Assembly (NCBI GenBank): GCA_012845835.1
Contig: JABAKD010000019.1
Location: 12,665,344-12,729,343 of the forward strand
Direction of reading: 5' to 3'
Source: Undaria pinnatifida
Taxonomy: Eukaryota; Sar; Phaeophyceae; Laminariales; Alariaceae
DNA: 64,000 nucleotides
In this document: positions 9,601 to 64,000 of the stretch, one piece after another
Layout of the letters: every line of letters begins with the position of its first letter
Position numbering within the stretch: position 1 is the stretch's first letter
Translations under genes and position numbers: made by a program
Notes under the pieces: model-generated
Database searches by the model: none
Seen by the model: the letters and a program-made list of their open reading frames with translations, nothing else
Told to the model about the DNA's origin: nothing

Positions 9601-12600
9601 TCTGCCCCGCTTGCCTCCCTTGCCCTTACCTGTGTCAAACAAAAAATGCATAAGGCGTAAATATTGTAATGCACGCAACACATTCAGCGCATACAACAAA
9701 TACAACGCATGCAACCACCGTCTGCCATCCTTCCTTCCCCCTGTTGCTTCCATCTACCCCGCGTGCCTCCTTTGCCTCTACTTGCGCCATACAACGCACA
9801 CAATACATACAACGCACACAATACACACGACGCATAGAGCGCAAGGTCCTAGGAACACAAGAACAATGCCAGGTACATCGGTTCCACCTTGCGAACACCG
9901 TAGGACATCGCGCAGGGCGATGGACACCCGCGCTTCCTCCGAATGTCAAAAGCATACAAGCGGCCGCGCAGCAGCCACAGCAGTACACAGTACAGCGGCA
10001 GCGGTACAACAGCAGCCGCGCTTTCAGCTCTTGACCATTGTATGAAACTTGAAACAGCAACGAGGGTTTCGAGTATGAGCGTGGGCGGCGCTCAGCAGGA
10101 GATCCAATCGAGACCGCATTTTCACGCGCAATGCAAGAGTCCAAATACACGTCGTCAAACCTCACACATGCCTGATAGCTCATAGGAACGCCCACCTTGG
10201 TCCTTTTCACGCTGCCACACATCCGGGGGTTTCAAGCCATCCACATCACGAAGAGGAACTGTGCATCCCATATCATACCTACCACTCCGCGTATCTACCC
10301 CTTCGGGATACAGGAGGTGGCCCTATATAGTGCGGGTCCTATAGTGCGGGTGTCCGATATTGTGCGGATGAAATCGTTTGGCACAATTTAGACCCCTCTA
10401 TAGTGGCCGGTTTTTATATAGTGCGGGTGCCCGGTATAGTGCGGGTAAATTTTCGTGACACATGCCCGCACTATATAGGGCCACCTACTGTACAATGTAA
10501 CAGTAGCAACGTTTTGCGTAAAACACAAGGCTAGGTGATATGGGATGTCATACCGTATAGGGGGCGATTGGCGGGTAATGGACACCAGGCTCTGATAGTA
10601 GTCGAGCCCCGCCGAGTGCATACTCGTATAAATTCGTTGGGACTTTTTCTTGTGGACAAATTGACTTGCGGAAAGCGCGAGAGCGTGAGTTAGCAACATT
10701 CGATGAACAATCGACGAGCAGTGGGATTGCTGAACCCTATGCGCGATAAAAATTGAAGGCAAGAACCGGGGAGGAGAAGGGATGATACCTGTGACCACGG
10801 CTTGTCCAGAAGCTGGAAAGTCAAAGTGTGCAAAAAAAAAAAAAAAAAAAAAAAAAAGTTACTACTTCGGGCGATATGGGTCGTAGGTACACTTTCTACC
10901 GTTACGTAGACATATCTTCTCGTGAAGATTTGTATGAACGCTAGCCGTTCCGGAGGTGTTGGATATCGCGTCTTGTTGTACTAAAAGCGGTCGTGGAGTC
11001 TCCGTAGATTCTGGTGACAAGAGAGACGGGCACTTCCGTTTTTCCGCCAACAAGTGACAACTGTCGACTCTCGTCCTGCCTGTAGAAGCACCTCTCGTTT
11101 GCCTCAAGGAGCTTCTATCGCTTTGCCCTCGCTTGGTTCGCCGTCGAACCTTGCGCTAACCTGGTGTGTAGATAAGAAGAGAAGCTGTCGCAAGTCGTGA
11201 GTCGAACCTGGATTATCCCAACCTACAGGTATCTTGACATATACCACTAAAAATATACCTGGTATGTTTGAAATTACCTCTGGCAGCGGAGGAGGGAATG
11301 GGGTTCTGGGGGAGCAGGGGCTGCTGCCCGTCCACGGCAAGCCAGTGCATGTCGAAACCCGGCTCTATCGGGCACACCGGCAGAGACGCGTTGGCAACCT
11401 GAGCAGGCAAGCAGCATGAAAAGAAAAGAAAAGAAAAACAGCCAGAGGCACCGCGAGCGGGCAAAGACAAAACCTTAAGACTGAGGCGGCCATCCTTGCC
11501 AAGAGCATAATTACAAACCACAGGCAGCAGTAGCACTAGCAACAGCACAGAAGCAGCAGCAGTAGCAGCAGCACCAACCGCACCACCACCCACCACCACG
11601 ATTCCCGCCACCACTACGATCACCTTCACTATTAGAAGCACTGGCAGAAGCACACTAACAGTCAGCAGTGGTAGAACAAAAGAGTCAGCGGCTGGTTCCC
11701 CACATGAAGGCGTGGTGATCGCCCAAAGAAGAGGTGGTGCCAAGCACCCCCCCACCCCCCCACCCGTCTCCTCCCCTTCCCCTCTCCCTCCTCCCCTTCC
11801 CTCACCCTTCTCCGCCCCTCTCCCCCCCCTCCCTTCGCCGCCCCCCCGTTAACTCCATTCTCCTCCTTCAGCTCACCTTTCTAAGGTCCACCTTGCTGTC
11901 GGCGCCGAGCACAGTTCTAGCCGCTTCGCTCGAGCCGTCGTCTCTCAATGTCGCCATCCCCCCCGAAAAAACGAGAGAGCTCTATCATCGAAGCCCAAAA
12001 TCCCCCGAAAAGAAAAAGCGGCCAGCAGTGGAAAAACAAAAGACGGAAAGGGAAGAGCGACGAGTCAGCAACGCCACCACGCCCCCCGAAAAACGAAAGC
12101 GTCTTGTTGTCGAAACCTAGTCCACCCCCCCCAAAAAAATGGGAAAAAAAGGGAAAAAAAAGAGACGAGGCCGAAAGGTGGATTAATTAGTACAAGTAAA
12201 ACTTATGGTCGCGCCTGCCTCCTCTACCCAAAAAAATACATACAGCTTAGTACTCGAAAAAAACGAAACCACTACTAATATAGTTTATCGTTGTTTTAAC
12301 AGTTTGGTTTTGCTCCGTTGTGTTCCGCCCCTAACCGCAAAAAAGAAAAGCAACAGAATAGCTCAGAAAAAAACAACGCGAAAGGAAGCCATACGAAACC
12401 AAAAAAACTGAAACTGAAAGAAACGAAACGACGCGGAAACCAAACCAAACCAAACCAAACCAAATCAACTCAACCTAGTAAGGCCAGAAAAGGGCTAGAC
12501 AAGCCCCTAAGCGCCAGTCTCCTATTGCATCCAAGGTACCACCCTGGAAGCAAAAGCAAGTACGGTTGACACATCAATACGAATACCCAACTGTTCTCAC

Positions 12601-15600
12601 ATTTCGTCCATACTTCTTGTCTCACCGCGGCGCCGGCAGCAGAGTTCGAGGGAGGCGTTAACGTCGTCGACGGTGACGCGGGACCCACCAAAACAAAACA
12701 AACTAAACCAATAGAATTTACCTCCTTGACTGACCGCCCTCCACACTAACAATATAGTCTAGTAAGGCCAACAGAGGGCTTGACGCGACCAAAAACACCG
12801 GTTTCCTACGTATCGTACACCTCGTACCATATTTTCCGTCTTACCTCGGCGCCACGGAGTTCCAAGGAGGCGTTGATGTCGTCGACGGTGAGACGGGATC
12901 GCTTGCCGCGAGCGCGAAAGTTATCTGCGTCATTCACGACATCGAGGAGGTGGTACTCGGTCGAGGCCGACAGGAAGGAAAGCACGTCCGGAGACACTTT
13001 GCCCACCTGATAGCAGAAGTTGTGCAAAAAAAGGAACGGGAACGGCGGCATTGACGCAAAAGAAAAAATTGGAATATTCCCTTGTTTCCCAGGAAGCGAA
13101 CAAAAATTATTGCTACACATGCACTTCTTATTGGGTGGCGCATGCATAGTAGGTGCGCGCGCGCGCGGGGGGTAATCATCGTATCACGCATGGATGTAGT
13201 CCGCAGTCCGTAGGACCATGGTCCCTCACATCCCTGCAATATCGGGATGGAGCACGTCGAGTTTTCACCAGCCAGGCAGACATCGCGTGCACCAAGCGCG
13301 AAGCTCCTTGAGGTGTCGGGCGAGTCGCACAAAGGGTCAGCTGCATTTTGCTGGGAAACGCTTATGAGGCGGACTTCGGCACCTGGTGCGTACATTGTTG
13401 CATATGATAGCGTCGAATAACTTGGCGTATTTTCCGGTCGTGGCCACTTCCAGAGACAGCAATGGGCACAATATGTAACTGCCTCGTGCGTGCATTGCCA
13501 TATGCCTGGTACCAGGGCACACACCCTACGTGATACCTGATTCCCATCGGGGGGGGGGGGGGGGGGGGGGTACTCGTTTGCTACATGTCTTAGTAATTTG
13601 ACCATTGACCACGCATCCCTTTCGAGACGGAGCACCAATCCGACCCCTAACAGCGACAGCTCCAACAATTGGGCGCCCGCTACGTTTCTTACACCTGGTA
13701 TACTACAAGGAAAAAAAATGATTATCGTATCTCCGTCCTCTTAGGCCGCCTGTGGCCATCATCTATCTCCTGGGATAGCGATCGTACTATCGTTACTATC
13801 TGATGTACCAAACTGACCCCCATCGGTCTATTTTCCCCATCTCATATTCTTAACACATCCGGTTCCTCCTTGTACAGTACACATTCTCCCACTATTTGGG
13901 TCCTACTCTCGTAAGCCCTGCCACAAACGCGAGAGTGCCTGTGAGTTCACTTCGCACTGATGGGAACAACAGGCAGTGGCAGCATGCGGAGGAGTGCAGG
14001 TTGCCGCCATAATGCCGGCATTTCCGGCTGGCACATACCGGCACTATACAGGAACCACTGCTATATATACTCGTGTCATACTGGTATGTGCCAGGTATGT
14101 ATAATACATGTATGCGACTTGGCCCAGATTCAACTACAAACCCTAACCCCACCTACCACTACCCCTATAACCCCGACCGCCTGGGTAATTTCTCGTGACG
14201 GAGATACAGTGAGGAGGTACAGTGGTGGTCCCTTTATATAATAGCGCCGGTACGTGCCAGCCGGAAACTGGCACTATAGCTGCAGCCGGCACTACTTCGC
14301 ATACTGCCATTGCTAGGGCTGTGGGTTTGGGCACTACAAATAAAAAGTCGCCAGCTAGTTACTATTTGGCTAGGTAGCATAGTTAGCTGTGGCGGTGTCA
14401 ACTATCCAACCATTTTCCGCATTTAGGATTGCGTGCGTGTAGGAAGGCTTGCCAATTTTCCCTGGTTCATGAGGTCAAATCCTGAAGCCGGGACTTTCCC
14501 CAACGTGATCTAGTATACCAGGTATATAATTATGTCTCTAGTTAGTTTGTTCAGCGTCCAACGGGCAACGAGCGCCTCTGGCTTGGGTGTTTGAGCGATG
14601 CCCGTCCTGAGCTGCATGTCTATTTCAGCAAAAGACCGTAAGGCTCAGGAATGAAACCTCGTGGAGCACACAAATTGGTTTTGTGTGTTTGTTGCAAACT
14701 CATCCAATACCACGGAGGGTAGCTATGGAGGTATCCCATGGTGTTCGCTCATAGTAGCTCAACCCTTGATACGAACCGTTCTTGAATCGCCGACGACGAA
14801 TAATTTTCTCTCTGCTCCTGGGTTAGAATAGATCCCAGTTTATTTTCTTTAGTATTTAAGGGTTAGTTCTCGAGAACACCGCAGGGAGGTGTGAATCTCC
14901 ATTGTGACCCACATATCAGCATATTTCGTGTTATTTTACTGGCGGTGTGCCACTGCGTGCCGCACGAGTATTTATCGTTACGACATATTTTAACACCAGT
15001 GAGAGAACCCAAATGGGGACGGCATGTCCAAAATTCTGGTGCATCCAAATAAAGTCTTACAAATTGAGACGATTTTTTTCGTTATCAAACCCAAAGCTAA
15101 ACTTGGCCGATTCTTAACACTTATTGAGTGTAAGATTATGCTCGAATGCGGCGGCGCTTTCAGCGACATCCTCGCAAGGCGCCTCCGGCGGGCCCTCCGG
15201 GGGCGCCTCCAGCAGGGCTCCCTCGGCCGGGGGGGGCTTTTCACCTGACTTTAGTCGACTATAGTAGTGGCCTGGCTAACGCCAGCCAACTAGTCGACTA
15301 AAGGAGCGAGTTGGCGGCGGGTCTCACGGGGACGCCTCCAGCGGGGCCCCCTACCAGTGACTTTAGTCGACTAGTTGGCTGGCGTCAGTTGGTTCACAGC
15401 CAACAACGAACTAAGTGGGAACTCCAGCCAACTCACAGTCCAAGCCACTGCTGGTTGCTCCCATCTGTGCCAATAGATTTCACAGTCAGTCGCTATGACC
15501 TATAAAGCGGGCAACCGCCACTATTACGGGGGACCATAGTAAATAGGACCAAATATTGTCAGTCAAAATAGGGAAATATATTGGTTTTTGTGTGTACCGT

Positions 15601-16515
15601 AGGTCCTATTTACTATGGTTCCCCGTAATACGAGTTCTCAGCCTGCCTACTACTATCGAGGATGTAGTTTGAACTGTAAACCATTCCGTCCGCCAAGTCG
15701 TAAACACTACGCCGTATAATACGTACAGCAGCAGTAGTTGAGTTCTGCTGTAACTGACTTTCGACTCTCGAGACACAAGGTTTGGGCCTGCACTGCCGGT
15801 GTTGCTGATGCTGCCGCTGATTGCAATCATCAAGCGGCCAAGCGGTGCACGCAAAAAAATGTTGGAGGCGACGCCAACGACTGGAACGAAGTCTACCGAT
15901 AGAAATATTGGAATATTCACTCATCCTACTGCTGATACTGCTACCTGTACTGACTCGCCACCGCCGAGTAACCGACTCTACCTGGTACTCTGTACTGCTT
16001 TGCCTGGTATATAAATACCAGGTACGCGTGTAAGAGCGAAAGAAGGCCCTTGCCTCGCGAGAGGACATCCTTCTCAGATGCGGCTCAAATAGCCGCCGGT
16101 CCCACCGAGAAAAAAGGGCATCATGGCAGTAACATACTATCGATCTGTCAACGTTTTCTCGTGGCGTGATCAGAGGCTACCGAAAACTAACGCCTGAACA
16201 AACAGCACAGCATGTAAAGAGGAGGTTTTGCCCTTGCAGAGGGTGGCAGCAACTCTTTTCGGCGAAGGTCCGTCGCCAAGAACATTTGGTGTACAACTCC
16301 ACAATCTCGATATAAACGTTGCTCCTTTTAGACTGGAAAACAAATCTATATCAATTCCAAGTAGTTTGACGCCAAAAACGAGGGTGCAGCACTCTTTTTG
16401 ATGTTTGGTGTTTTTAAACATGATTAGGGTGGCGCAAACTTGTCGTCACCTGCGCTGCGGCTGTGACGATACGGAGCGACTCGTGGGATACGAGGGGTGG
16501 TAGCTGCTCTGACAT
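694..16515 (-). CDS. TAF6: TAF6, TFIID/SAGA subunit, complete 11-exon gene
   Basis: Transcription initiation factor TFIID subunit 6, a nuclear histone-fold protein that pairs with TAF9. Exons, in transcription order: 16450-16515, 12845-13006, 11877-11981, 11278-11398, 9512-9629, 8348-8468, 6597-6704, 5663-5868, 4577-4683, 1772-1926, 694-1260. All introns are GT-AG and every junction keeps phase; the total is 1836 nt, 611 aa. Residues about 8-76 form the histone fold (RLTVDDINASLEL near its end). Residues 111-150 carry the linker with MHWLAVDG. Residues about 175-423 form the HEAT domain: LSEELTTYLR, ALASLRTDPGLQQLLPHL, LLPPVMSCLLY, WKVRDYAAGLLRAICDK, LTTLYGSIRGLACLG. The last exon is a Ser/Thr/Asn/Gly-rich tail. 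The start at 16515 gives a short MSEQLPPLVSHESL leader, as in the family. The least certain exon is 11877-11981, whose acceptor was chosen because it alone keeps phase without a stop. Family assignment is firm. Confidence 0.92.
2480..3000. repeat. Two tandem copies of a dispersed 300-bp family in TAF6 intron 9
   Basis: Copies at about 2480-2760 and 2790-3000 share the order GGAGCTCAAGACC, an A-rich block with ACTGCT, a GATGAAAAATCCC-like block, CCTAGGTATA, and a CGACGATTTTGGGTTAAGGAGCC-like block broken by poly(T). Other copies lie at 20-235, 7370-7870 and, in part, 33700-33900 and 59640-59890. It is non-coding and probably a non-autonomous transposon; no clear termini were found. Confidence 0.65.
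3043..3225 (-). repeat. Poly(A)-tailed retroposon copy 1
   Basis: On the minus strand the unit runs GTGCGCCAGCTAGCGTTGGG, CGACACACGACGCGTATG, GAGCTAAAGC, CCATCCGCCGGAGGAT and ends in a long poly(A) (poly(T) at 3047-3067 on the plus strand). It is almost identical to the copy at 3431-3620. The 3' poly(A) points to retroposition. Confidence 0.75.
3431..3620 (-). repeat. Poly(A)-tailed retroposon copy 2
   Basis: Near-identical to the copy at 3043-3225, spaced about 390 bp away, with its own poly(T)/poly(A) end at 3431-3444. The high identity suggests recent insertion or duplication within TAF6 intron 9. Confidence 0.75.
4165..4480. repeat. 77-bp tandem array, about four units
   Basis: Four units each contain AACTGGAAACCCG, TTTGGGGACAAAA, TTACTTGGATT and GGGAGGGGTTCGGGGGCTC. 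Single diverged units occur at 22465, 33737, 34231 and, inverted, near 36865 and 59735. The array sits inside a copy of the 300-bp family (left part near 4050-4160, right part near 4480-4555), so it looks like an amplified inner module of that element. Confidence 0.8.
5320..5645 (-). mobile_element. tRNA-derived SINE, divergent subfamily, in TAF6 intron 8
   Basis: Read on the minus strand it opens with a tRNA-like head near 5645-5565 carrying a B-box GGGTTCAAGTCTC. It continues with GGGACTTTTTCTAGTG, GCGGAAAGCGC and CGACGAGCA, and ends with CTGTGACCACGGCTTGTCC. The body matches the copies at 10590, 32170 and 59952, but the head differs from those at 32170 and 59952. Its head ends about 18 bp from the TAF6 donor at 5663. 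Confidence 0.75.
6360..6596. repeat. Polypyrimidine/polypurine tract at a TAF6 splice donor
   Basis: A C/T-rich tract of about 230 bp (CCCTCCCTT-type units, plus strand) begins directly beyond the TAF6 donor at 6597, so the intron starts with a long G/A-rich transcript segment. It can form triplex or G-rich structures. No coding role. Confidence 0.7.
7370..7870. repeat. Copy of the dispersed 300-bp family in TAF6 intron 6
   Basis: Contains GGAGCTTAAGACCTCTCCC, AACTGATTTGGGAGAAAAA, GATGAAAAATCCCATGGCC, a broken GACGATTTTGGGTTGAGGAG and TCTATCGTAGC blocks, in the same order as at 20-235 and 2480-3000. Interrupted by poly(T) and poly(A) runs. Confidence 0.65.
8655..9435. repeat. 78-bp minisatellite in TAF6 intron 6
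   Basis: About ten units with the landmark CCGGCACTATAGAGGGCAAC at steps of 78, 78, 78, 78 and 77 bp (CGGCA at 8836, 8914, 8992, 9070, 9147). Each unit also holds CACTGCCACTGTAGG and CCATCCGTGCCAAGCG. Because 78 is 26 codons, a 174-codon open frame runs through it; I treat that as a repeat artefact. Related single units occur near 13960-14310, 15450-15510 and 32110. Confidence 0.85.
10309..10492. mobile_element. MITE with 26-bp terminal inverted repeats and TA target site
   Basis: The two ends are mirror images: CAGGAGGTGGCCCTATATAG at the left and its complement (one mismatch) at the right, about 26 bp each, flanked on both sides by TA. Length is about 180 bp. The inside repeats TATAGTGCGGGT. 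The TA duplication and CAG(G/T)AGG ends suggest a Tc1/mariner-type non-autonomous element. It lies in TAF6 intron 5. Confidence 0.8.
10590..10858 (+). mobile_element. SINE copy with poly(A) tail, degenerate head
   Basis: Contains GAGTGCATACTCGTATAAAT, GGGACTTTTTCTTGTGGAC, GACTTGCGGAAAGCGCGAG, AACCGGGGAGGAGAAGGG and CCTGTGACCACGGCTTGTCC, then a poly(A) of about 27 bases at 10831-10857. The upstream tRNA-like head is degraded (GTCGAGCCCCGCCGAGTGC). Confidence 0.8.
12610..12690 (-). pseudogene. Partial duplicate of the TAF6 histone-fold exon
   Basis: The minus strand encodes SRVTVDDVNASLEL followed by a donor-like GTGAGA, closely matching SRLTVDDINASLEL and the donor at 12845 of the real exon about 220 bp upstream in the transcript. 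The flank also repeats (CTAGTAAGGCCA at 12476 and 12758). It lacks the front two thirds of the exon and would not keep the frame in the reconstructed mRNA. Confidence 0.75.
13170..13400 (+). repeat. Poly(G)-bounded dispersed repeat, copy in TAF6 intron 1
   Basis: Begins at a G run (13166-13172), then ACCATGGTCCCTCACATCCC, GAGTTTTCACCAGCCAGGCA, GCGTGCACCAAGCGCGAAGC and GGCGGACTTCGGCACCTGG. A second poly(G) run of about 20 bases lies at 13550-13570. Same family as at 575, 45555, 47125, 48585, 51185 and 52185. Confidence 0.75.
15237..15395. repeat. Perfect 25-bp inverted repeat in a GC-rich tandem duplication
   Basis: Bases 15279-15303 and 15361-15385 are exact reverse complements (CGCCAGCCAACTAGTCGACT core), separated by 57 bp. 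CGCCTCCAGC and GACTTTAGTCGACTA also recur as direct repeats. Likely a small inverted-repeat element or its rearranged copies, in TAF6 intron 1. Confidence 0.7.
15524..15628. mobile_element. 105-bp MITE with TA target site duplication
   Basis: Ends TTACGGGGGACCATAGTAAA and the near-perfect complement (one mismatch over about 26 bp, ending CCCCGTAA), each flanked by TA. The middle is AT-rich and has no coding capacity. It is a textbook non-autonomous TIR element, with ends unlike the MITE at 10309. Confidence 0.85.
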
Positions 16516-18625
16516 GCTTCAGTCGTGGATGGAGAGGCCGGCAAGGAAGTGTATCGGCTGAAGGTGCCTCGTGCTGTGAGAATGCTTTTCTCGACAAAGA
16601 TGAGAAAACGGGGGAGTGCCATATATCAGGAAGGCTTTTCCAAAAAACGTTACATATTGTAATATTTATTTGACACGAACCGACGAACCAAACGTTACAC
16701 CCCTAAAAAATGCACTCTTCCAAGCCTATCTGGATTTCTCGACAATGTATACCTGGTACAGGGCAAGAGCCCAGCGACGCGTCTATGGAAAGCTCTCGAC
16801 AATACATTTTTCAAACCCGCCATGCTGGTTTCGTGAGCTTCCCTTGTTTTGGAGAAATTGTCTTCGAAGTTCATCCCAGACGTGCTCGTATAGTCTCGTC
16901 TATATTTATTTCGTGTTTTACGTCGTGACGAACGCACTTTATTTAAAAGTTATTTATTGTACCGGTTGTACTGGTCACACGGTACACAGTTGGTACACAG
17001 CAGTACACCAGTTCGCCAGCTAATAATCGGCCGCAGCGCCTCGGGGCCCAGGAAAGACACGTGAGTCTGGGGGTATAAGGGCGGGTACCAGGAAGGGGTC
17101 GAATTTTACTTGCTAGAAACGAGGAAGAAGCGCAAGAAAGCTGCACGCCATTTCAGCTCCCTGGTAGATAATTATATACTTCGAAGTATGTATGCTATTA
17201 TTATTATTGATGATATTATGTGGGAGGTTCCATGGACCAGATTACCGGACTCGACCGCCAGGAATGTCAGCAAGGAAGGGGAGAAAGGGGAGCGGTTTCC
17301 AGAGAAGAAGTGCATAAGGCATATCCGATATACCCGATAGGAACAAAAATCCGGAGGGAGTTTGCCGGCATCCGCGGCCGGAGAAAGGTGTTCGTGGGAG
17401 AGGTACGACGTATAGTCTAGTCTTCTATTATTGTACGACTTTCAGAAACCCGCACTGGCAAGTAAGGTATCCAAACGATGATTGGGAGCTGAATCATCAA
17501 CAAATCCCACGGGATTTGGCGGCAGCTTCAGTTTCAATCGGGTGTCTGAGATAAATTTATTGGAAGGCCGGATGAAACCTGGGAAGAGGTAAATAAATCG
17601 TCAGCAACTAAAAACGGGAAAATCAATCGGCGACCTTAAGCTCAAATCGTTCTTATTACACGGCGGATCTGGCTGGGAAGGGTAGAAGCTCCGTTGGCCG
17701 AGGCAACATTCTTCGAAGCTCTGGAGGATACCAAACATGGGGGGGTGTTGCGGAGGGGACGCGGGAGCACTGATAGGCTGGGATGGACGACGCGTTTCAT
17801 TTAGATAGAGCGGTTTCGTCCGCTGAATTGTAACGTCGGACCCCAGGGGTATTGCAAATTGCATACTCTTGAACTCATACGTATTAGTAAAGTAGTACGA
17901 AGTATTATACTAAACACTCCTCACGTGAAGAAGAAAAAAAAAGGTAAAGAAGTGAGAAGGCAACAACTGTTGTAGTCTATACATCTGGGTGCATAAGCAA
18001 CGGTTCGCTGGTACACACATCGTTCCCCTGTGCTTACGAGACTCATTAACTGCTTCTAACCAACTTGCTAGTAGCCTGGGAGTTTGGGAAATCCATCGCG
18101 AGCTGGGTGGGAATCTAGGAGATGTTGAAGGTATTCCTAGGACTTGCCAGGTTCTACCTGGTACGTGTACAAGCTCTCACGGCGGCAAGGTGAGAACTAT
18201 ATCCAGCGAGAAAGTAGAATGACAGAGGTCCGACTCGCTGCTGTAAAATTAAGAGTTGAGGGTATAGTCTGAGGTCCAACTGCCGAGGGTGGCCCCCAGA
18301 GGTAACGACATTAGAGTAAAGGTGAGTCTATGGCGAAGCGACGTCCACGAAAGAAGACAAGCACCGCAGGCGTGTACAAGTCTTCGAGGAAACGTCTACT
18401 ATAACAAGACCTTCAGAACTGCACCACCATTGTTATTATTTTGGGAGATAAGTATCGTAGTGCGCGAAAATTAGTGCAGTAATTTGTTCTAAAGGTTCTT
18501 TGGTGACCACTCACCACCCAGAAGGTTCATAGATGACCAATCACCCGGATGATCCAACTTGGATAAAGCCAAATTACGATCCTCGGCCGTTTAGAGTTGC
18601 TTGGTGTATTTCAATTTGACCTCCT
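16516..18625. other. TAF6 5' flank; no intact gene
   Basis: The region directly upstream of the TAF6 start holds no TATA box I can defend. It contains two TACCWGGTA motifs (16750, 18155), the perfect palindrome TACTTCGAAGTA at 17177 and the decayed transposon segment at 17240-17545. Open frames here show no recognisable protein. Confidence 0.5.
17240..17545 (+). pseudogene. Possible transposon-derived Tudor-like fragment
   Basis: One frame gives PIGTKIRREFAGIRGRRKVFVGEV up to about 17405; after a frame change, 17458-17520 gives WQVRYPNDDWELNHQQIPRDL. Together they resemble the small beta-barrel segment (F.G....W.G.V...........VRY.D.D.E.L...) found in some retroelement polyproteins of algae. 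It lies about 1.1 kb upstream of the copia relic on the same strand and could belong to it. There is no intact gene here. The assignment is by pattern only and weak. Confidence 0.35.
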
Positions 18626-21492: not shown

Positions 21493-24400
21493 TCAGTTGA
21501 CCAAGGCCGCGAGAGGGTCGACGTTCTCCAGCACTCCCACGCCGGTGATGTGCTCCTGCACGATCATGCCAAGGATGGAAAACATAGCCAGGCGCCCGTT
21601 CTTGAGCTCCCTGAGCTGCACCCGCTCCCATGCCTCCTCGTTCTGCGGCTTGAGCCCGAGGGGGTCAAAGCCCAGGTCGCCGCCCATGGGGCTCAGCTCC
21701 TGCTGCTTCTGGCCCCACACCTCGACGGCGAAGATCGCGAGGATGATCTGGACGAAGGCGAACGGGCGCTGCTCGTACACCTGGGGAGGCGTCAAGGGGC
21801 AGGGGAACGGGGGGGGGGGGGGTCGATGGTAAGGCGAAATACCAGTATGAAGAGAGTTTTTTCTCGGCCGGGGGGGGGGGTCGAAGGACAAAAACAAGCA
21901 CCAAGGATGTGTAGGGGGGCGAGGGGCGAAGATACCTGTAGGGCGAAAACAGGTACAGTACTGCAACAGTACTGGTACGCGTGCATGCTGGAGAAGCTCC
22001 GGGAGGAGGAGAGGAAGAAACCTCGCGCCAATAAGGTTTCGATTGAAGCATATAAATCATCCAATTTGCAGCAGTAGCTTTGGAGGTGTGGGGGGGGGCG
22101 CGTATAACTAGTTGCTTGCCTTAGTTGTTCAACTATGAAACACGCATTCCTTCAAGAGACAAAGCACCACTTTTACTCGTAATGGACACCTCCAACGTTA
22201 GGGCAGGCGCTCTGTACTTTTTTTTCACGTAGTTTTCACGACTTTTTTTATAACCGGCCTCCCACGAAAGGGAATGGGGGCTGGACCTCTGATTGTTTTG
22301 GTCGATTTTTTGGGGGGGTCCTAAAAAGGATCATTTCGTGCCCCGACCCACCTGCATCCAAGGGATACACCATACCAGGTATGGAAAAACGATAAAAATA
22401 ATGGATGGTGTTGCAGTAGCAAAAAAATAATTCATCGTTTGATCCCGACGAACGTTAACGCCTTCCAACTGGAAACCCGTTCTGGGGGACAAGTTTACTT
22501 ACTTGAAAATAGTATGGGGAAGGGTTTCGGGGCTCTGATGAGTTAAGCGAAGCTAAAACAATGCAGCGCTTAATCCCGGCGGTCGTTAAGTGCATTTTAG
22601 CTTCACTTAACCCATCAGAGCCCCGAAACACAACCGGTGCAGGCGTCTCAAAATAGCTGGGCTGACAGAGTTTTCTCGGGGGTTACCTACTGATGTCGTC
22701 GCGCGGGCGATCCGATAATAATCCTCAGGTGACTTCACGTCCGCTGCTTGTGTTATTAATACTAGTGTCGTCGAAACGTGGATAAAGCTGTAAACGGGTT
22801 ATGGTGTCGTTCCGATAATTCGACGCAGCTACTATACGTTGCCGTCCTCGCCCCCTCCCTCCGGCGCCTCCTCCCCGTGACATTGAATTGAACGATTATA
22901 CGACGAAACCTGCATCAAACACATGCCGCGGCTGCCTACGAGACGTCGCAGTCAATACAGGAAAGCTGCCCTAGCCGATGAGAAGGTGGGGTGGGGCCTA
23001 AAACCTAACGCCGCATCCATCGGCATCGCAAGGACCAATACTACGCAAATATTCGCAAGAAATGGGGACAAAATAAACCACATTTATGCCATAGCAGGTA
23101 GTATCAATCGCCGCCGGAGAAAAGCGTGGGCGCGTGCAGCAGTACAAGAAAAATCATACCGTCCGCCAACACCCGCGTTGTGGCGCATCTCGCATTGTTG
23201 CGAGAAAGCACAAGATAGCTGTCGACGTATCGTCAACTAACTGGAAGGTTGTACCACCGACCGCCCCCCCCAAAACACCTCCAGATCTTCGGTGGGTATA
23301 CAAAAACCACCATGAAAACCAAAGCAAATTATGGACGTGGGCACACCTCCTTGTATTGTTCAAAATTTGTTTAATAGGTCAAACTATCACCCCCCCAAAC
23401 CCTAGCCGTGACCAACGCTCTCTGTCTGCTCTCTGTCGGCTTTGTCGTCATTTTTGGCCCTCTTTAGTTCCATGCTCGTAGGACTTGACAAAATCGACAC
23501 GAAAAGGACAAATGCTGTCATCATTTCCCCCCCCCTCAAATTTCAACAGGGTTCAGCCGAGGGGTGCCATATATACACAAAACGGTACGCGTCATTTCCC
23601 CCCCCATTCGTATTGCCAAAAATTAAACGGTGATAAACAGTGCAAGAATAAAACCATTAAAAAAGAACTACACGAACTTCCAAGGGGTCCTTGGCTTTAT
23701 TAACGATGAGATGCACAAAACGCCTGCTCACCGCTGCTTGACCCCTCCCCTTATTTGGGGGCAAGATAATTGGAAATAGAGTTAATCTTGTTCAACATTC
23801 CAACACTTTCGCAGAACAACAATGACACACAAAAAAACGCCTGTGATGCTCTACAACTCTCAACGCTTGACGAATTGTGGGGTGGCTTCAGAGTACCGCA
23901 GCCCTACCCGATGACAAGACCGCCACCGCGCTTCAATACTTCCATCAGTTAGTTTTACGTCAGCAACAAAACTAAAAGGCCAACGAAAAAAAAATGACAT
24001 ACTGTTATCAGTGACATACTGCCATCAGTTAGTTTTACGCCAGGAAAAACTAAAATGCCAATGAACAAAATGACGAAAAAAGTCACATAAACAAACTACT
24101 GTCGTTATCCCACGATAGGGACACCGTAGGGTGGTACCCTCTGGGGCAAGGCTCAAGTTTAGTGCGGTGTAATTGGCTTGTCGTCACCTCGTCCTACAGC
24201 GCTATGACGTACCGCATCATCTCCAGATAGTTCCCGAAACTGTCTCGTAGTTCCGAGATAGTTCCGGAAACTGTCTCGAGATAGTTCCGAGATAGTTCCG
24301 GAAACTGTCTCGAGAAAGTTCCGAGACAGTTCCGGAAACAGTCAACTTGCAAGGTACGGCGCAAATGGGGGAACAACACTGCACTGGTACGTTTTAAACA

Positions 24401-27400
24401 GGGCTCAAGAGACATAAACGTCTCGCCCGACTTCCACGCCAAGCTTGTTCACAGTGTTCCTCGGGGCATGCAGAAGCCGATTTCTACACCCTGACAGCAG
24501 TTGTTGGTATACTTTCAGGTACAAAAGACAAAAGCTTGCGTGTGGAATGGCCTCGTTCGAACATCATGGTTTGGAGGCAGGCAGACCCTGAACGAATACC
24601 TGGGAATAGAAGCCGAATTGTGTAGTCAAAACGGAGCAATATATACAAGGTTCAACTGTCTACCGAACCAAACAGCCTGCGATTGCGGCTGCACACACTG
24701 TTGCTGTGTACCAGGCACGACGAAAAAACTCCGTCGCAAGCAAGTTAACCTGCGGCGTTCTTAAACCCAAACACGCCAACTCCGCCTGTAGAGCAATTCA
24801 ACGCGTATCAACGAAGGGTGCGCCAGCTAGCGTTGGGCTGCGAAAGCAACTGAGTTAAATCGACACACGACGCGTATGAAAATACGCGCAAGTGTGGTGA
24901 GCTAAAGCTTTATTTTTCCCCATCCGCCGGAGGATAAAAAAAGAAAAAAGAAAAAATCAACGCGTATCGGACATCCTGCGTCACACGGATTGCCAAGTTA
25001 TGACCTGTCAAAGACGAAATATATTGGTAGTTTAAGGCATCCTTGACGGTTGTCCTGTCCTTCAGGGGACAAGAGCGCCGTCAACTGACATACTTGCTGA
25101 CCGCTGATCGCCGTACACTGCCATACCAACAGGTGTGTAGTCATTTTTTCAGGCGCGAGTAGTGAGACGTACGTATCAGTATGAACCTGGCACGTCGTAG
25201 GGCTGACTCTCGATTTCACATTTTTGTATCTAGCGGAGGCATGAAAAGAGTTGCGTCAGCTATGATATATGCGTGTACCATCTTGGTCTGTGTGTTTTCC
25301 CTGGGGTTTTCCTCCACTCCACAGTGATTGGAGCCTGTCCTGTGACCACGGACTTGATTATGCTAGTAAACGTGAGAAAAACAACAAGATACGCCTGACA
25401 GCGGGTCTCCACTCCACAGTGATTGGAGCCTGTCCTGTGACCACGGACTTGATTATGATAGTAAACGTGAGAAAAACAACAAGATACGCCTGACAGCGGG
25501 TACAACAGTTTTTTACTATCATCGTACAACGTCCAACACGCCAGAAAATACCCTGGTGCGTAATGGATTTCCGAGCCAATTGAAGCACTGCCTTCGCTAT
25601 CGTAACAAGACGGCATGAAACATAAAACACACCCTGGCACGTATGGATTTCCAAGCCAACACAATTATAAAAAGAGGGGTACCCAAAACGAAGAATAGAG
25701 GGCTTGGAAACATCTCGCGGAGATCGTTCCATAGCACACATCGCTCGTCCTTGGCACGTGAAAAAGATTCCACAACACCTCTTGTTATCGCCCCCCCGTA
25801 ACTATGAACTTCAATCAGAGGAACAGGAAATACATGACCAGTGCCTTCATGGTCCATAACGCAGCCATCCGACTACCTGCTGCAACGCCTCGTTCAATAT
25901 AAACTCTTGGCAAACAAAATATACTGTCGTCAATGAATCACCTGCTGCATCGCCCCCCACGCCGATCCGCTCTTGTCGAAGATGCCGCTGGGGTCGTTCC
26001 AGTGGGTGAAGTGCTGCGTGATCTGTCCCAGCGCCGCGAGCATGCACACGCGTCCGTGCTTGAGCTCCGCCGCGCGGTACCACTGCATCTGCTCGGGGGG
26101 GCAGTTCTTGCCGAAGTTGAGCGGGTCAAACACGCCTCCGGTCTCGATGTCGTAACCCACGAGGCCGTCCACAGCGTTAAATGCGACGGCGGGGGCCGCG
26201 GCCTTGCCCTTCTTCGCCGCCATCTGGAGGCTGTGGCAGTTGGTTCCAATGTTTCGGTGGGGTTTCCATAATTGCCATGGCGGTTTTCCCGTTATTTTGG
26301 TGTTTTTTTTGTTTTCCATCGAGGCGTTTCCGCGTGCGGCAATCAGGGCAAAGCGAAATAAGTAACGGACGAGGCAAGGATAGACCGGTTTGGGGAGGGA
26401 GGGGGAGAAAGGCAGGAATTGGTGAGCATTGGTGGAGAGTCAGGGAGGTAGGAGTTGGTAAGCATTTGGGTAGACAGCGAGGGAGGTGGGAGTTGGTGAG
26501 CAACAAAGAATTCCGCGTACATATTGTTCCTATGAATACGGGTGTGCCGGCACTTGTGTACTCTATTCGCTTGCACACGTCACATGCAACCCCTTTGGAA
26601 CTCAACACTGCACATATATGTGGTATGGACTACTTGAAAGTAGGGTGGGATACCGTTTCGAGCAGTGACTTAACAGTCAGTCAGTGTTGACGAGATGTGC
26701 ATCTCTGCAACCTGATGGGAACAGGACGGCTTGCTTTCTACTGGCGTACAGGGTAGGCTAACTCCCTGGCACGCAAATAGCCACTTGAGCGAAACACCAG
26801 AACGACTGCCGGTGTCGAATACGCTCTCCCCAATTACAGCAGTACCAGCTCTACGGCGAGTGTGACGATAAAATAACGCAGCGTGCAAATACGAGTTTCC
26901 CACGAAATTACCTACCTGGTATCTCACAGCCAGGGCAGGGTGTCACCATGAAAAAAATGTCGAAACATAAAACTAAGTCAACCCTAGTGGGTCTATTGGA
27001 GTCGATACGTCTTCTCTAACTTCGTATCATAGGGTCTACCGGTACCCTTTAAAACTGCACCGACGTTTTCCGTGACAAACTGCTTGAAACAAACGTTAGG
27101 GAGATCTTGTTTCGTGTTAGCGGCGAGAGGGTTGAGATGAAAGAGGACATCGTACCGCAGGAGGCACAGGTGGAGACCGCGGGTTGACCCCCTTGACTGG
27201 CCGCGCTCCTGAACTAGTACTTGTATATCAAACGCCACAAGAGACCCTGACCAGCACAAAAAGGACCTACCTCACTTACTCTTTACAACATAATAAACTC
27301 CAAACTCGTGTACCAGGTAGCGTTTCTGCATCAGAGATGGGTGAGATTCGACAACTTCACTCTGCCGTAAGTTGTGGGCTGTGGGTCATCGGCTCAACTT

Positions 27401-28968: not shown

Positions 28969-30814
28969 GAGCGGAGAGCAGGGATGCGCAAACAAGGAGA
29001 GGATGAGGCAGTCAGAAAATCTCTCTGAGAGCTTTACGATAATTAATGTACGATTTTACTACAAATCTATGCAATATATTATCGATGTCAGTTTAACTTC
29101 AAGTCATTTGCGATTTATGTCGCAAATAAAGATACGACCAAAAATCGCCCAAGATCCTCCTCAATGTGTAAATATTTCGCAACCCTTTTCCCCGAAAAAA
29201 AACGCCTTACGACTCTATACAACTATGCGCAGACTTGGATTGTTCGATACGCGCGGCTTCCTGGGGTCCTCGGGGTCCAAGAGAACACGCCCTGCGTTAT
29301 TGTTTCCGGCTGCGGGCGGTTCCGGATCTGTTCGCTGCCTCGACCAGCGTCGGGCCGGCAACTCTAGCTTGCGGGAGAAGCTACAGCAGGTTGCGTAGCA
29401 ACGCTGGCAAAGGTGTCAAACGAGCACGTTTGTATACACGGCCCGGGGCGGCGGCCATCAGCAAGGCGCTCTTATACTCCCACTGCTGTAGACATACGCC
29501 TGGGAGCTATCAACCACCCCGACAGCAGGCGAGCGTGTGTGCGTTGCAACTTTCCTTGCACTCAACGCAGGCACAGCTCTTCCTTTCTTCAAACTTGTCT
29601 CGATCTCCAAGACTTTGAGGAAAGCGCATCTGTCCACCCACGAGCTAAGGAACGCATATTTGCACGCAGTACGCGCGGGCCTAACGATCTTGTGCGCATA
29701 GCGAAGCGTTGGCATTTGCGCGAACATTAGGCTTGGAACTGCTGTCTGCTGCCATTTGCAATAATAGGCGATTGCGCGAAGCAGCGAAATGGCTTCCGAT
29801 AGACAAGGCGAGCTGGGATGGACCCCTCCACGTGTTCCGGCGGCACCGAGGCTTGTCTCGGGGGTGAGCCCAGGATCTTCTCGGGGGAAGCTTCGATCCG
29901 AGTACCAGGTAAGTGGGCATATATGATAAGCGCCATCAGCTGCGACGTACGTGTTATAGCGACCCTTGGCCTCGCGTATACGTACCTACGTACCTGTGTA
30001 GCCTGGTGTAGCCGCAAAGGGGTGTTTGGGAGGAAGGTAAGCAAGGCCTTGTGGCGCAGGTTTGGAGCTTGGAAGCACTATTTCGCAGTAACCTTATTCT
30101 ACTGAGTTCAATGTTTGACCCTGACTTGTGCGTGGAGATGGTCCCATGCTGTGCGCGATGTGGTGGCGTGAGGCATGAGCTTTGCTTCGGCTGCGGAATT
30201 TGAGTAGCTGCGTGGGTAAGTATGTTACATTTGATCGGTATTGGCAGCAAGCGGTATTACACGGCTGGTCCATCTAGAGCTCGGAAGGGCGGGCGCGGGG
30301 GGAGGTCTTGTTCAAAATCCATCCTTCCTCCTTACATCTTTAGCCTGTCTATCTTGCGCGTGAAGAGCCCATGCCGTGATGTGATGCCGTGAGGCTTGTT
30401 TCCTGACAAAGGCTTTAGTAACGGTATTTGATTACCTGCTGCGTGGTGCCCATATTACACACAACATGGGCAGACTTAGCGGTAAACTACCGTACGTAAG
30501 TAAGAGTAACATAGTAGTGGCAGCAGCAGTATTCGGCTGGTGCAAGCAGTGTGTCTGGAGATTGGAGAGAGGTCGACAAGATGGACAGCAAGCAGTGCAT
30601 TGGGTGCAGGCATACATTGCATACACATCTTTATTCGCGGAATCGTCTTGAGTAGCGGGGGGGTTAGTAGTATGGTGTGTCACTCGCTCACCCCCTTTTA
30701 CAAGCACCCGTGCGTGCCTCGCCATATGCTTGGCGGTATTCTCTTTCAGACGACGCGAGGCGTGTAATGTGGTGTGTTTGTTGTTGTTGTTGTTGTTGTT
30801 GTTGTTCTCACATT

Positions 30815-56802: not shown

Positions 56803-56803
<1 letters not shown>

Positions 56804-58760: not shown

Positions 58761-59204
58761 TCACACGCCCCCCCCAGACTTTCTCGCGTGCTGAAAAAGG
58801 CAAGATGCACCCAGGCAGATGCAGCAGGGAGAGAGGCACCCACAATTACAATAATACTGCGAAAAAAACTACCAGGTACACGCTAGTACTGTCCTCTGGG
58901 GGGGAGGGGGGAGGGCACAACTGCCATGTTGTTGCCGCCGCGCAAGCAGCACTAGCATTAATAGCAGTAGCATCACCAATAACCAGCAGCAGCAGCAGCA
59001 GTAGCGACAGCAGCACCAGCAATAGCGGCAGTAGTAGCAGTACCACCAACGTCATCACCACTACTATTATCATCACCACCACCGCCAACACCGCCACCAC
59101 CACCACCAGTAGCACGTGCAGCGCTATCAGCAGTCACAAACCATCATCACCACCTTCACCACCACCACTAGCAGCAATATAGTACTAGCAGTCACAAACC
59201 CTCT

Positions 59205-61228
59205 TCATCGGCGTCGCTGCTTCTTCCCTGTTGCGGGGGTGGCAGGTTTCTTCTTCTTATGAGAGGCAGGCGCGTCCGACGCCGCTAGGCTCTTGCGCTT
59301 CTTCCCCCCGCCACTGGCCGTCTATGATCGCGTCGGTGAGGGGGAGGGGGAGAGGGGCGGGGGGGGGGGGGGGGGAGAAAGGGAGGAGGGAGGAAGGAAG
59401 GGAAAAGAATGAGCAAAAACAACAAATAAATGGAAGAGACAAGAATAAAAACATCACACTCGAAAGTGAACTTTTATGTCCCCCGTCGACGTTAACGTTT
59501 CTTGAGAAATAATGGCATACCAAGCTACAATTCCTACGTAGTTCTGTTGACTACTGCTACTACTCCTACTGTAGTAGCTACTTTTGACTATTACTACTCC
59601 TAATCTAGTTCTGCCACTACAGCTACACCACCTCCTACAAAAATCTGGAACCTACTTGAGACGCGTGCTACGATAGAGGCGTAATTAGCACTTTTTGGTA
59701 CATTTTTTTTCTGAACGAAGGCGCTCCTTAACCCCGTTAGACCCCCGAAACCCTCCCTATGCTAAATCCGAGTAATTTTGTCCCAAAAACGGGTTTCCAG
59801 TTGTAAAGGCGTTAACCCAAAATCGTCGAAATGTCGCCATTCTTGCTTGGCACCATGGATTTTTTTCATACCTAGGCCATGGGAAGGTGTGTTGTCCATC
59901 GGGTTTGCACTTTCGGTTTACTCTATTAACAATTCACTTTTTGACTCAGAGGGGCATATTCGCCCCGGTGGCGTATCAGGTTATCCTCGAGCCTGGTATA
60001 AGGTCAGTTTCGTGAGTTCGAGTCCCCCCGAGTGCATACTCGTATAAATTCGCAGGGACTTTTTCTTGTGCACAAATTGACTTGCGGAAAGCGCGAGAGC
60101 ATGAGTTAGCAACACTCGATGAAAAAATCGACGAGCAGTGGGATTGCTGAGCCCTGTGCGCGAAAAAAATTGAAAGGCAAGAACCGGGGGGAGAAGGGAC
60201 GACACCTGAGACAACGGCCTGCCCAAAAGCTGGAACGTAGAAGTGCGAAAAAGTAAATATATATATATGTATATATGTATAGACCTCCTCATCAGGTCAG
60301 GAGCCCTGGAAAAAAAAAGGTGCACCTTCACCGTACTATTAGTAGTATTATTAGTAGCATGTGTCTTGAGTCAGTATTGCGAAAATCTGCCACCGGTGCT
60401 GCAATGAGCAATGACCTTACCTCCAGCTCTTCGTTCTCCTTCTCTACGAGCCTGATCAGAGTGTCGCCTCTTCTTTGTAGTTCCGCCGCATTCCGGCTCT
60501 TGAAGAACCAGTCGAACCGGAACTGCCACGCCTGCAACGGTTCAATGTAACAGACCAAAAAACAACACGAAACAACAAGAGCAACGAGATACAAAGGCGG
60601 TCGAAGCATCAGCGCTATTGCAGGGGAACATATAGCTTTTAGTATACGCGAGATATGCCGATTTAACTGTTCTTAAACCTTTTTTAGCACCGCAGTCCCG
60701 ACACGGGTACAAATCACATGGAGTTAGACTAGGAAAAATTTAGGAGTTGGAAATGCGTTACTAGCTTGCAACAATGAGTTAAAATCCTCCATCTTACAGC
60801 TATGATATGATAGCTGGTGCGTATTTTTTACGTTTTATGGAAAAAGGTGAACAAACACAAAAATGAAAATTCATCATATTGGATTACATCAACGGATGAA
60901 AAGACATTACTAAACTGAAAACTTGTTTTTCGTATTGTTGCGTAACCTTATTTGCGTGTTTTTCGTTTTTTTTTCAGTTTTTTTTTTGTCTTGTTTTCGT
61001 TTTGTGTATAATATTTGTTGCTGTTATGCAAGTTTTTTTTTTTCATCTTGTTGGTGTTTTCCAATTATAAAGTGTTATCTTTTTCATTTTCTTCCGTTGT
61101 TTTGGTGTTTTACCTTGCGGATCTCCATGCGGATGACCTCCCAATTGCCATAACCGTAACGGTGCATCATGTTCAACAGGAAAGCGTCCTCCTCCTCTGT
61201 GAACACTTTGCCCTGAACAAAAAGAACG

Positions 61229-61259
<31 letters not shown>

Positions 61260-64000
61260 CACGTGAATAAAAACGAAAAACCAAAACGAAACCGAAACGA
61301 AATCGACAAAGCCACTGAAAGACAAAAACGGAAATCAGCGCGAAAACGATACTGATAAAAAAACACTAAAAAACAAAAACAAAAACAAACATGAAAGCTA
61401 AGACGAGAACGACGACGAAAACGCACACTGTATCATGCAAACACGAGCAAAATGCAAAAATGCACTACGTAAAAATAGACTATGGTATAAACTTGTTTGG
61501 GCTGGTCGGTGATTCTAGCCCAGTTGTAGAATATAAAGCGGTTCTTATAATAGCTGTTCAGCATGCCTCCTTTCAACATGCAACACCCTCGGGATTTTGA
61601 ACGCAACCACATCCTGAAGAGGGAGGCTTGTAATGAATAAAGTGGTAGTCGGGATGACTTGGAAAGTAAAAAAATAAAGCTCAAGCTCACCACACGTACT
61701 TCCACATATTTTTCCATGCACATCGTGTATCAATTTAACTCCTGCCTTGTATTCGCAAAAATTATCTTACTACGAATGTTCACCCTGACAACCTACAAAC
61801 GAGCGGCCGGTGTATCACGCAGCTTGCAAACATGAGTATCGACCCTAAGTTTGTCGAAATCGCAGCTGACGTTTTTCTTATTTACAATGTTTTTCATAAA
61901 ATATGTTGGCCAATGAAACACCCGAAATATCGGTGGTTGACCAATGACGTCCGACGAAATCCTCCATCTTACAGCTAGCTGGTGCGTATTTTCAACGTTT
62001 TTATGGAAAAAAGTGAAAACATCAAAAAGAAAACACATCAAATTGGATTACATCAACGAATGAAAATACATGGCTAAACTCGAACTCACAGCTGCCGTGT
62101 TCAAGAGTTTTCAAAGTACGCAATACTACACCGCACGCACCTTCCCGCCGTAGTAGTTGATGGTGAGGTCCTGCCACGGGTTGGCGTGTCGGTTGACCTT
62201 GCTGTCGATGGCGGAGCGGATCTGCTTGGACCGGAAGATTCGCTTCTCTCCCTTCTCGATCTTCTCCATGATCTTCGAGTGGTCGCTCAGCTCCCGGCAT
62301 CGTTTCCAGAACACCTGCAAACAAGTGCAACACACACACAAAAAGGTGTTACAGACGTACCAGGTTTTGTAAAAAAAGAAAGAGGAAAAACGTTGTAACT
62401 GTGGCATACACAAAAAATAGTACACCTGGTAAACAGACACCACGACTTGAGTGTAACTCCACCCACACTACCAAAAGTGTGATGACGTTGTATTGCCGGC
62501 GATCCGAATACAACCCTCAAGCTAGTTAGTTGACTATACGCCGACGAAGGCAGATGTTATACCTTTTGCATCATGTGGACTACCAGATTTATAAGAAAAT
62601 GATAAATAGACGATAATCGCGTGGAAAACAACAAATATGACTGGCTTGCGAGAAACGGACAAGAAAACGACAAAAGAACAAAAAACAAAAATGGGTAGAC
62701 TAGTCGTTCAGCCATTTCTGTAACCATTTCTGTAACCACCGAGGTAAGTAGCAACCGTCACGTCGACCGAGCGTGCCCAGTAACCGTCATCTCTATTAAC
62801 CGTAACCAATAATTGTCACCTCGACCGATCGAAGCCAGTAGCCAACGGAAACGAACGCATAAACGTCGCCTACCTTGACGTACCTGGTACTTGATTTCCA
62901 CCCAAATTCCAAGTACCTTTACTAAAATGTTCGCGGTTTTAAAACTTCTGTTGGGTTGCAAAACATGTAAACATAGTATTGAAATTGAGGAACATCACAT
63001 ATTACCCCAAGGCCAACCAACTCATGAAGAAAATAGGCTACAGAAATAAAAAAAAATAGGCTACAGAAATAAAAAAAATGGTAGGAAAACGTTATTTCTA
63101 AACATTTTTTCGCTGATTGTTCGTAGGTTGGGTTGGCCTTAGATCGTGACATTTGACGGCTTCAATACTATTCTTGATACACTTTTCCACTCAACTCCTA
63201 CCCCCGCTCCTACCCAACCAAACTTGGTGCCTCGCAAACACGCCACTGATTTCACCGAAACGTGGGCGCGACTCTAAAAGGGTGAACAGGCGCGCCTAAC
63301 AAAGCCGTCGCTTCGACCAACCGTAACCAGTAACCGTCATCGCGGCCAACCGTAGCTAGAAAAGAGCGAAGAACAAACTCAAACTTGAAAAACCACCCAC
63401 CTTGATGTACTTGCGGACGTTGTCCTCCATCTTGGCCGTCTCTAGGCAAACGTCCCGAACGACGGCCTCGGTGTCTTCCCTGTAGACAAAAAATCAAATA
63501 CAGGAAGCACGCCGCCAAACGTCGAACCAACCTCGGGGTAAGAACAAACCAACCAGAAGCAAAGAAGCCAACAAACATGAAACGACAAATCGAATACATA
63601 AAAACAGACATTAAACATCCAACGACACACTACGCAAAAAGACCAAGGCAGCAAAATCAACAGCTTGACAACAAACGAAACCAAACCAAAGCAAAAATAC
63701 CGCGAGCATGACACCATAAACTACCGGACTTGAAGCCGACACTAAACACGAACGACAAGACAACGACACAACGAGAAATACGAGCAACACATCAAAACCA
63801 TGCACCACCGCAAGAAACACCAGCAATATATATCGGAAATATATTTCTAGTCAGAAAAGCTTGTCCCCAAAAGCGCACCTCCTACCGCCGGATGAGTGAC
63901 ATCATCATCATCATCATACTCACCGTCCGTGGCGCTCGGTGGCGGCAACGAAGGCGCGGAAGTCCTTCCTGTTCCAGTCTCCGAACGCCGCATCGATCAG
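59205..64000 (-). CDS. ISWI: ISWI chromatin-remodelling ATPase, C-terminal part (SANT-SLIDE)
   Basis: C-terminal 218 codons of an ISWI-family (SMARCA5/SNF2H-like) nucleosome-sliding ATPase; the helicase half lies beyond the window edge. Exons in transcription order: 63924-64000 (partial), 63401-63479, 62141-62314, 61114-61212, 60421-60531, 59205-59321. All introns are GT-AG and all phases match; the first junction splits one Arg codon. The window opens in the SANT domain ([19 protein letters not shown]), then the linker helix ([20 protein letters not shown]). The SLIDE domain follows: [19 protein letters not shown], then [18 protein letters not shown], which contacts linker DNA. The last exon is a short Lys/Arg-rich tail (KKRK, HKKKK, KKQRRR) that could serve nuclear import or DNA binding. 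The gene runs toward, and is convergent with, the Cdh1 gene. Assignment is unambiguous. Confidence 0.96.
59700..59890 (-). repeat. Dispersed GGAAACCCG-family unit in ISWI intron 6
   Basis: Inverted unit (CCCGAAACCCTCCCTATGC, AATTTTGTCCC, GGGTTTCCAGTTGTAAA) inside flanks of the 300-bp family (TGCTACGATAGAGGCG at 59668). Confidence 0.7.
59952..60256 (+). mobile_element. tRNA-derived SINE in ISWI intron, antisense to the gene
   Basis: Head GCCCCGGTGGCGTATCAGG with B box GAGTTCGAGTCCC, then GAGTGCATACTCGTATAAAT, GACTTGCGGAAAGCGCGAG, GAACCGGGGGGAGAAGGG and GCCTGCCCAAAAGCTGGAAC. It ends in an A-rich and (AT)n tail at 60245-60275. Closest to the copy at 32170. Confidence 0.85.
60785..62080. repeat. 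Pair of 125-bp direct repeats in two ISWI introns
   Basis: Bases 60785-60915 and 61956-62077 share AATCCTCCATCTTACAGCTA, AGCTGGTGCGTATTTT, TTTTATGGAAAAA and TTGGATTACATCAACG. They lie on either side of the exon at 61114-61212, so exchange between them would delete that SLIDE exon. Only the two ends of this interval are repeats. Confidence 0.75.
61665..61770 (-). repeat. Diverged poly(A) retroposon copy
   Basis: Matches the family at 3043 and 44327: AAAATAAAGCTCAAGCTCAC, CACATATTTTTCCATGCAC, CGTGTATCAATTTAACTCC, TTGTATTCGC. Older and truncated. Confidence 0.6.

Follow-up and report, generated by a model that had tools for sequence, protein, structure and literature searches.

The question raised by this locus is why a single 9-bp palindrome, TACCWGGTA, should recur throughout one window (the whole 64-kb stretch of DNA that was analysed). 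All 20 copies reported in a preliminary description of the window were recovered at their positions, with no further copy elsewhere in it, and their centre base is A in 13 and T in 7. The chance level estimated there, about 0.5, was reproduced by dinucleotide shuffles of the window, which gave a mean of 0.52 copies and a largest count of 3 in 100 shuffles. TACCWGGTA is also the top W-centred 9-bp palindrome of the window, with 20 copies versus 5 for the next W-centred one. The sites, labelled here as putative footprints and given without strand, are as follows:

11256..11264, putative footprint TACCTGGTA
14516..14524, putative footprint TACCAGGTA
15979..15987, putative footprint TACCTGGTA
16016..16024, putative footprint TACCAGGTA
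16750..16758, putative footprint TACCTGGTA
18155..18163, putative footprint TACCTGGTA
22373..22381, putative footprint TACCAGGTA
26913..26921, putative footprint TACCTGGTA, with relatives at 8161-8208 and 61950-61978
27311..27319, putative footprint TACCAGGTA, with a local duplicate at 27558-27631
27924..27932, putative footprint TACCAGGTA
28064..28072, putative footprint TACCAGGTA
29903..29911, putative footprint TACCAGGTA
31368..31376, putative footprint TACCAGGTA
32378..32386, putative footprint TACCAGGTA, the filled site in a SINE-like repeat (~32179-32485)
35236..35244, putative footprint TACCAGGTA
35590..35598, putative footprint TACCAGGTA
36396..36404, putative footprint TACCTGGTA, with an extra CCTGG directly before it (CCTGGTACCTGGTA)
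37003..37011, putative footprint TACCAGGTA
58870..58878, putative footprint TACCAGGTA
62881..62889, putative footprint TACCTGGTA

The sites are clustered, with 18 of the 20 lying inside 25.8 kb, a concentration reached by none of 5,000 uniform placements. Positions 1-11,000 hold no site among 572 TA dinucleotides, and the site-free interval of 37.1-58.8 kb pointed out earlier proved to be genuine, positions 37,101-58,800 being empty despite 1,029 TA dinucleotides. The flanks do differ from site to site, as had been claimed, the only clear rule in the window being that of the adjacent base (T precedes the word in 0 of 20 cases and A follows it in 1 of 20). With regard to the extended forms that had also been described, GTATACCAGGTATAC is indeed present at 27924, but the flanks are otherwise without common sequence.

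Whether the word is frequent beyond the window was examined in the assembly to which it belongs (68 contigs, 511,146,479 bp). There, TACCAGGTA was counted 43,004 times in forward and 42,259 times in reverse orientation, 85,263 in total, versus 1,712 and 1,763 for the reversed control word (3,475 together), an excess of approximately 82,000 copies. The doubt raised in the preliminary description, that the genome-wide frequency might lie near random expectation, is thus answered by a 24.5-fold enrichment over the control. With a mean spacing of one site per 6.0 kb, 10.7 sites would be expected in 64 kb; the window, with its 20, has about twice the density of the genome as a whole. Closer comparisons were made in a sample of 221 kb consisting of the window and 27 loci of the same genome (220,848 distinct bases, 56 distinct sites, of which 34 have A and 22 have T at the centre); the sister-copy comparison counted 58 sites, two loci overlapping. 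Mutually unlike flanks were found in 47 of the 56 sampled sites, which upholds the earlier view that no single repeat family stands behind them. Among 100 listed A-centred sites of C1, spacings below 1 kb numbered 17 versus 7.3 expected with tandems excluded, and this excess, together with the cluster in the window, could reflect either hops over short distances or differences in age between stretches of DNA.

Repeats in which the word is lacking bear on its origin. The repeat that contains the 32378 site is dispersed, its label, SINE-like, being taken over from the preliminary description, and comparison of the window with itself revealed three sister copies of that repeat without the site:

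5362..5554, - strand, diverged SINE-like sister copy, empty when aligned to the joined flanks
10602..10840, + strand, sister copy of the SINE-like repeat, with an empty TA at the equivalent of 32378
59960..60252, + strand, empty SINE-like sister copy, with TG at the equivalent of 32378

Throughout the 221-kb sample, all 14 sister copies spanning the 32378 junction align without the 7 bp, the corresponding position being TA in 12 and TG in 2; hence TA became TA-CCAGG-TA. The change, from CCC-TA-TGCG to CCC-TACCAGGTA-TGCG, added five bases and duplicated the TA. In a further locus, L006:1501, the site lies in a minisatellite with a 10-bp period; at about 72-76% identity, the other units continue across a TA that is not split. 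At 26913, both short diverged relatives (E 2e-5 and E 6.3) show a 7-column gap in the MAFFT alignment, but the pairwise alignments split this gap and the case is a weak one. The local duplicate of 27311 gives no clean alignment at the site, the hits of L008:1501 come from a low-complexity site and are uninformative, and the remaining sites have no spanning sister copy within the 221-kb sample. As far as paralogous empty sites can tell, one strong locus and one supporting locus show TACCWGGTA to be a derived 7-bp insertion into TA with duplication of the TA.

The surroundings of the insertions were compared with those of all TA dinucleotides in the sample, reading the 112 flanks of the 56 sites outward from TA. 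At +1, A is found in 5 flanks versus 22.8 expected (p 3e-4); at +6, T in 53 versus 28.4 (p 2e-6); and at +7, A in 48 versus 29.1 (p 7e-6). Left and right flanks agree at +1 and +6, while the excess of A at +7 is one-sided (31 and 17 of 56 when the sites are oriented by their centre base). Genome-wide, TTACCWGGTA occurs 6,215 + 6,098 = 12,313 times, and T therefore precedes TA in 12,313 of 170,526 flanks (7.2%), compared with 20.2% for the TA dinucleotides of the window as a whole. The target preference around TA is non-random and dyad-symmetric. Relatives of the word differing by one mismatch (centre excluded, distinct flanks, 221 kb) number 73 versus 36.2 expected, with 38 transitions versus 12.5 and 35 transversions versus 23.7, while those of the reversed control word number 27 versus 28.9; the excess of near misses consists mainly of transitions, as for decaying scars.

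TACCWGGTA is accordingly viewed here as very probably the footprint left by excision of a cut-and-paste DNA transposon with TA as its duplicated target site, and scars of this kind seem to number tens of thousands in the genome. The donor element would insert at a TA, duplicating it, with ends that would begin 5'-CCAGG, and its excision would leave the flanking DNA with single-stranded overhangs of 5 nt. Two CCAGG overhangs could then anneal with the central A:A unpaired and be sealed by end joining, after which repair of the A:A mismatch would leave either A or T, yielding TA-CC(A/T)GG-TA, and each scar would be the record of one hop. The W centre matches such a pairing of mismatched overhangs; the mismatch itself we infer, and likewise a transposase as the cutter, the length and polarity of the overhangs, and the donor element. 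The filled-in product expected of unpaired ends, TACCAGGCCTGGTA, occurs at 3 places in 511 Mb versus approximately 1.9 for any 14-mer with even base use, which is about chance level.

By analogy, the scar would work like a Tc1/mariner footprint, and its anatomy is that of a TA-targeting cut-and-paste excision footprint. The footprint of Sleeping Beauty and Frog Prince is C(A/T)GTA according to the available text of PMC3878927. Sleeping Beauty transposase is described in excerpts of PMC7827188 as cutting 3 nt inside the element, the flanks keeping 3-nt 3' overhangs, and end joining after its excision as giving a footprint identical to the overhangs. TA-C(A/T)G-TA and the present word would have in common the duplicated TA, an overhang self-complementary except for a central A:A that gives W, an annealed end-joining product, and a non-random target around TA. 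They differ in that the footprint there is 3 nt and here 5 nt (CCWGG), and in that the present scars number tens of thousands in an assembled genome and the donor has not been found. Tc1/mariner footprints are 2-4 bp long in the portion of PMC7913693 available to us, a range that excludes lengths of 5 bp and, for the second class described below, 6 bp, so that both would be new variants with respect to that statement. Membership of Tc1/mariner is not claimed here because of the footprint length and because the donor was not found. Minos-type members of Tc1/mariner leave a footprint of 4 nt, likewise TA-bounded and only a few nucleotides long, but differing from the present one in sequence and length. 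If a low-copy element hops frequently and the sites it leaves are repaired by end joining, every hop would add one scar, and scars vastly outnumbering elements would thus need no new principle; to our knowledge, scar numbers on such a scale are unusual. The literature searched, as far as its text was available, yielded no report of genome-wide footprint relics or of footprints in kelps, and no mention of TACCWGGTA or TACCNGGTA.

If the word arises by a footprint mechanism, different TA-x-TA words should have been left by other TA transposons. When the 221 kb were scanned with x ranging from 1 to 12 bases (words found four times or more, unlike flanks only), TA-CCAGG-TA came out at the top with 47 distinct-flank copies versus 1.5 expected, followed by z-score, with simple repeats and words containing TA-CCAGG-TA excluded from the ranking, by TA-CAGCAG-TA, of which 12 of 12 copies were distinct versus 0.75 expected. 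Genome-wide, TACAGCAGTA occurs 30,703 times versus 1,084 for its control, and CAGCAG is self-complementary except at A:A pairs. This candidate second class is represented in the window by three sites:

26835..26844, + strand, putative footprint of the second class, TACAGCAGTA
34394..34403, + strand, putative footprint of the second class, TACAGCAGTA
46472..46481, - strand, putative footprint of the second class, TACTGCTGTA on the + strand

The palindromic mixed products TACAGCTGTA and TACTGCAGTA both number 0 in the 221-kb sample; if CAGCAG overhangs do anneal, both mismatches must therefore be resolved in favour of the same strand. At 303 places, scars of the two classes have a TA in common (TACAGCAGTACCWGGTA), one orientation having been searched, versus 0 for the control and approximately 91 expected by random re-use of TA, and the listed C1 sites include one such compound and one in the other orientation. 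As a third class, TACGAGTA (27 copies in the 221 kb, of which 21 have distinct flanks versus 6.2 expected) was set aside because the SINE-like repeat contains TACTCGTA. Separately, TAGACTA/TAGTCTA was seen in excess over the 220,848 bases, with 41 distinct flanks versus 10.9 expected and 55 copies versus 22 of the reversed control, and is possibly a footprint class of 3 nt.

The preliminary description had suggested that the word could be a protein-binding or DNA-modification site. Such a motif, its palindrome recognised by a factor or methyltransferase and kept by selection or drive, would explain the sharp palindrome, the strong enrichment, and the W centre, but is very improbable in view of the 14 of 14 sister copies in which the word is missing as a clean 7-bp insertion at TA, the 73 decayed forms versus 36.2 expected, led by transitions, the preference that reaches +6 and +7 outside the word on both sides, and a second TA-x-TA word similarly enriched. 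The excess of decayed forms and the word-free sister copies in particular leave the motif unsupported. HIP1, one of the highly iterated palindromes of cyanobacteria, is likewise a short palindrome enriched genome-wide, but the present word is a TA insertion that decays and not a maintained one.

The same description also proposed the scar of a very small mobile element, of which the scar is borne out by the paralogous empty sites, whereas the very small element is superfluous since the repair that follows excision of an ordinary TA transposon would give TA-CC(A/T)GG-TA. Mobile elements of extreme shortness with TA and CCAGG/CCTGG at their borders, or excision repairs that captured filler DNA, with TACCWGGTA as the shortest form, are given as little credence as the motif. 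Five convergent TACCAGG..CCTGGTA pairs (four of them distinct) lie within 250 bp in the window, where shuffles give 0.08, and 974 pairs with a gap of 45-75 occur genome-wide versus 16 for the control. However, approximately 845 pairs would be expected genome-wide from independent half-sites at the density of the 221-kb sample, and the likelihood of tiny elements was lowered because 974 is close to this figure and thus no clear excess. Moreover, in three of the four distinct window pairs one end reads TACCAGGTG, consistent with a scar that has decayed, and the interiors have no common end sequence beyond 5 nt, their matches elsewhere in the window being confined to poly-G and short strings (the best non-poly-G match a 15-mer, E 0.003). 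Many half-sites taken for filler DNA or tiny elements turned out to be decayed scars or parts of repeats. A mariner reading of the TACCWGGTGTA half-sites was also abandoned, as the sequence after GTGTA is not common to them; the base after TG obeys the flank rule of the scars.

Same-class tandems, TACCWGGTACCWGGTA, occur at 3,654 places genome-wide versus 2 for the control and approximately 251 expected from random re-use of TA. Six of the first nine C1 tandems have the same centre (AA) and three are mixed. Since four of the six AA tandems lie within 26 kb on C1, some tandems are probably duplicated DNA; if those four are copies of a single duplicated unit, as they may be, about half of the rest are mixed, as independent hops would be. 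The number of tandem copies is also what would speak for an origin of the word by tandem repetition or repair slippage of the 7-mer CCAGGTA, with no transposon involved. This is less credible still, as single copies outnumber tandems by about 20:1, the insertion is at TA with a target signature, the 303 compounds with a different word have only TA in common, and three of the nine tandems have unlike centres.

Least plausible of all is that the word owes its frequency to a Harbinger-like transposon that prefers it as a target: for Harbinger3_DR, integration is reported, in the available parts of PMC3016246 and PMC3432063, at the palindromic consensus AAACACCWGGTCTTT, of which ACCWGGT is a part, but a target preference makes no new copies of a word, the flanks are without the arms of that consensus, and the core ACCWGGT and palindromy held in common are, on that partial account, best taken as coincidence because the word is an insertion target there and here is itself the derived 7-bp sequence inserted at TA.

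The excision-footprint reading predicts an element with CCAGG ends, and the search for a donor found no intact one among 260 candidate end pairs spanning 40-6,000 bp in the 221 kb; most loci measure 3-10 kb, so that longer elements would be missed. The longest inverted-repeat run directly beyond the 7 bp was 5 bases among these pairs, with the one exception of two SINE-like copies facing each other. A profile search with PF13358 returned 8 matches, 7 of them over the cut-off, and those in the five loci whose ends were inspected belong to a family with TGGTCC ends; PF01359 gave 0 matches, but its control was silent too. Loci L015-L018 (G000 C18, C36, C55, and C30) hold DDE_3 copies of approximately 1.8 kb each that are about 99% identical, flanked by TA, and bounded by terminal repeats TGGTCCGTGCACAAC. 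TA-targeting transposition therefore occurs in this genome. The DDE_3 family was nevertheless rejected as the direct donor, for although it has TA on both sides and closely similar copies, its ends are TGGTCCGTGCACAAC and not the CCAGG of the scar. Related long open frames were noted in L019 and L020.

A bolder extension of the excision-footprint reading is regarded as rather unlikely. One or more lineages of TA transposon making 5- and 6-nt staggered cuts might be excised from the germline after almost every landing, leaving far more scars than elements; such excision would be near-obligate and perhaps host-assisted, recalling the elimination of elements in ciliates but with a heritable mark, and in an alga. 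Should the footprint reading hold, approximately 82,000 and 30,000 exact scars would form a record of where and how often cut-and-paste transposons hopped within one lineage. Their decay would give their age, and they would reveal the target preference in fine detail and the choice of annealed end joining as the repair route directly. The overhang length of TA transposons would be extended to 5 and 6 nt, and the question would arise why scars are plentiful while the donor elements are out of sight. It would also serve as a warning that enriched palindromes should not be read as regulatory motifs.

Some observations concern the surroundings of the sites. A frameshift test on the Copia-like element near 18155 was discarded, the site lying outside its recognisable coding part. 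The Copia-like reverse transcriptase frame at 18620-19597 of the window matches PF07727 at E 1.8e-6, below the curated cut-off. In viral contigs a SINE pattern had 0 matches, and the Copia protein matched two stretches, neither of which was confirmed; a search of Rfam gave 0 matches at gathering scores. Chlorophyll-binding protein exons (PF00504) lie on the - strand at 21493-22056 and 25930-26439, which identifies the host as photosynthetic, and the nearest solved chains of these light-harvesting exons are of LHCI, VCPI, FCPI, and ACPI types; together with the 511-Mb assembly, they point to a brown alga, perhaps the kelp Undaria. A string AGTGGG..TATAAGAGCGCC, possibly a promoter-like element, was seen at 36993 and 29490 (- strand) of the window and near 2847 of L025 (TTTAAGAGCGCC), places otherwise unlike one another. 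Finally, a dispersed repeat of approximately 78 bp (TTTACAACTGGAAACCCGTGTTTGGGGAC...) occurs in the window at 4167-4476, 33731-33811, 36864-36942, and 59730-59807, once as a fourfold tandem array.
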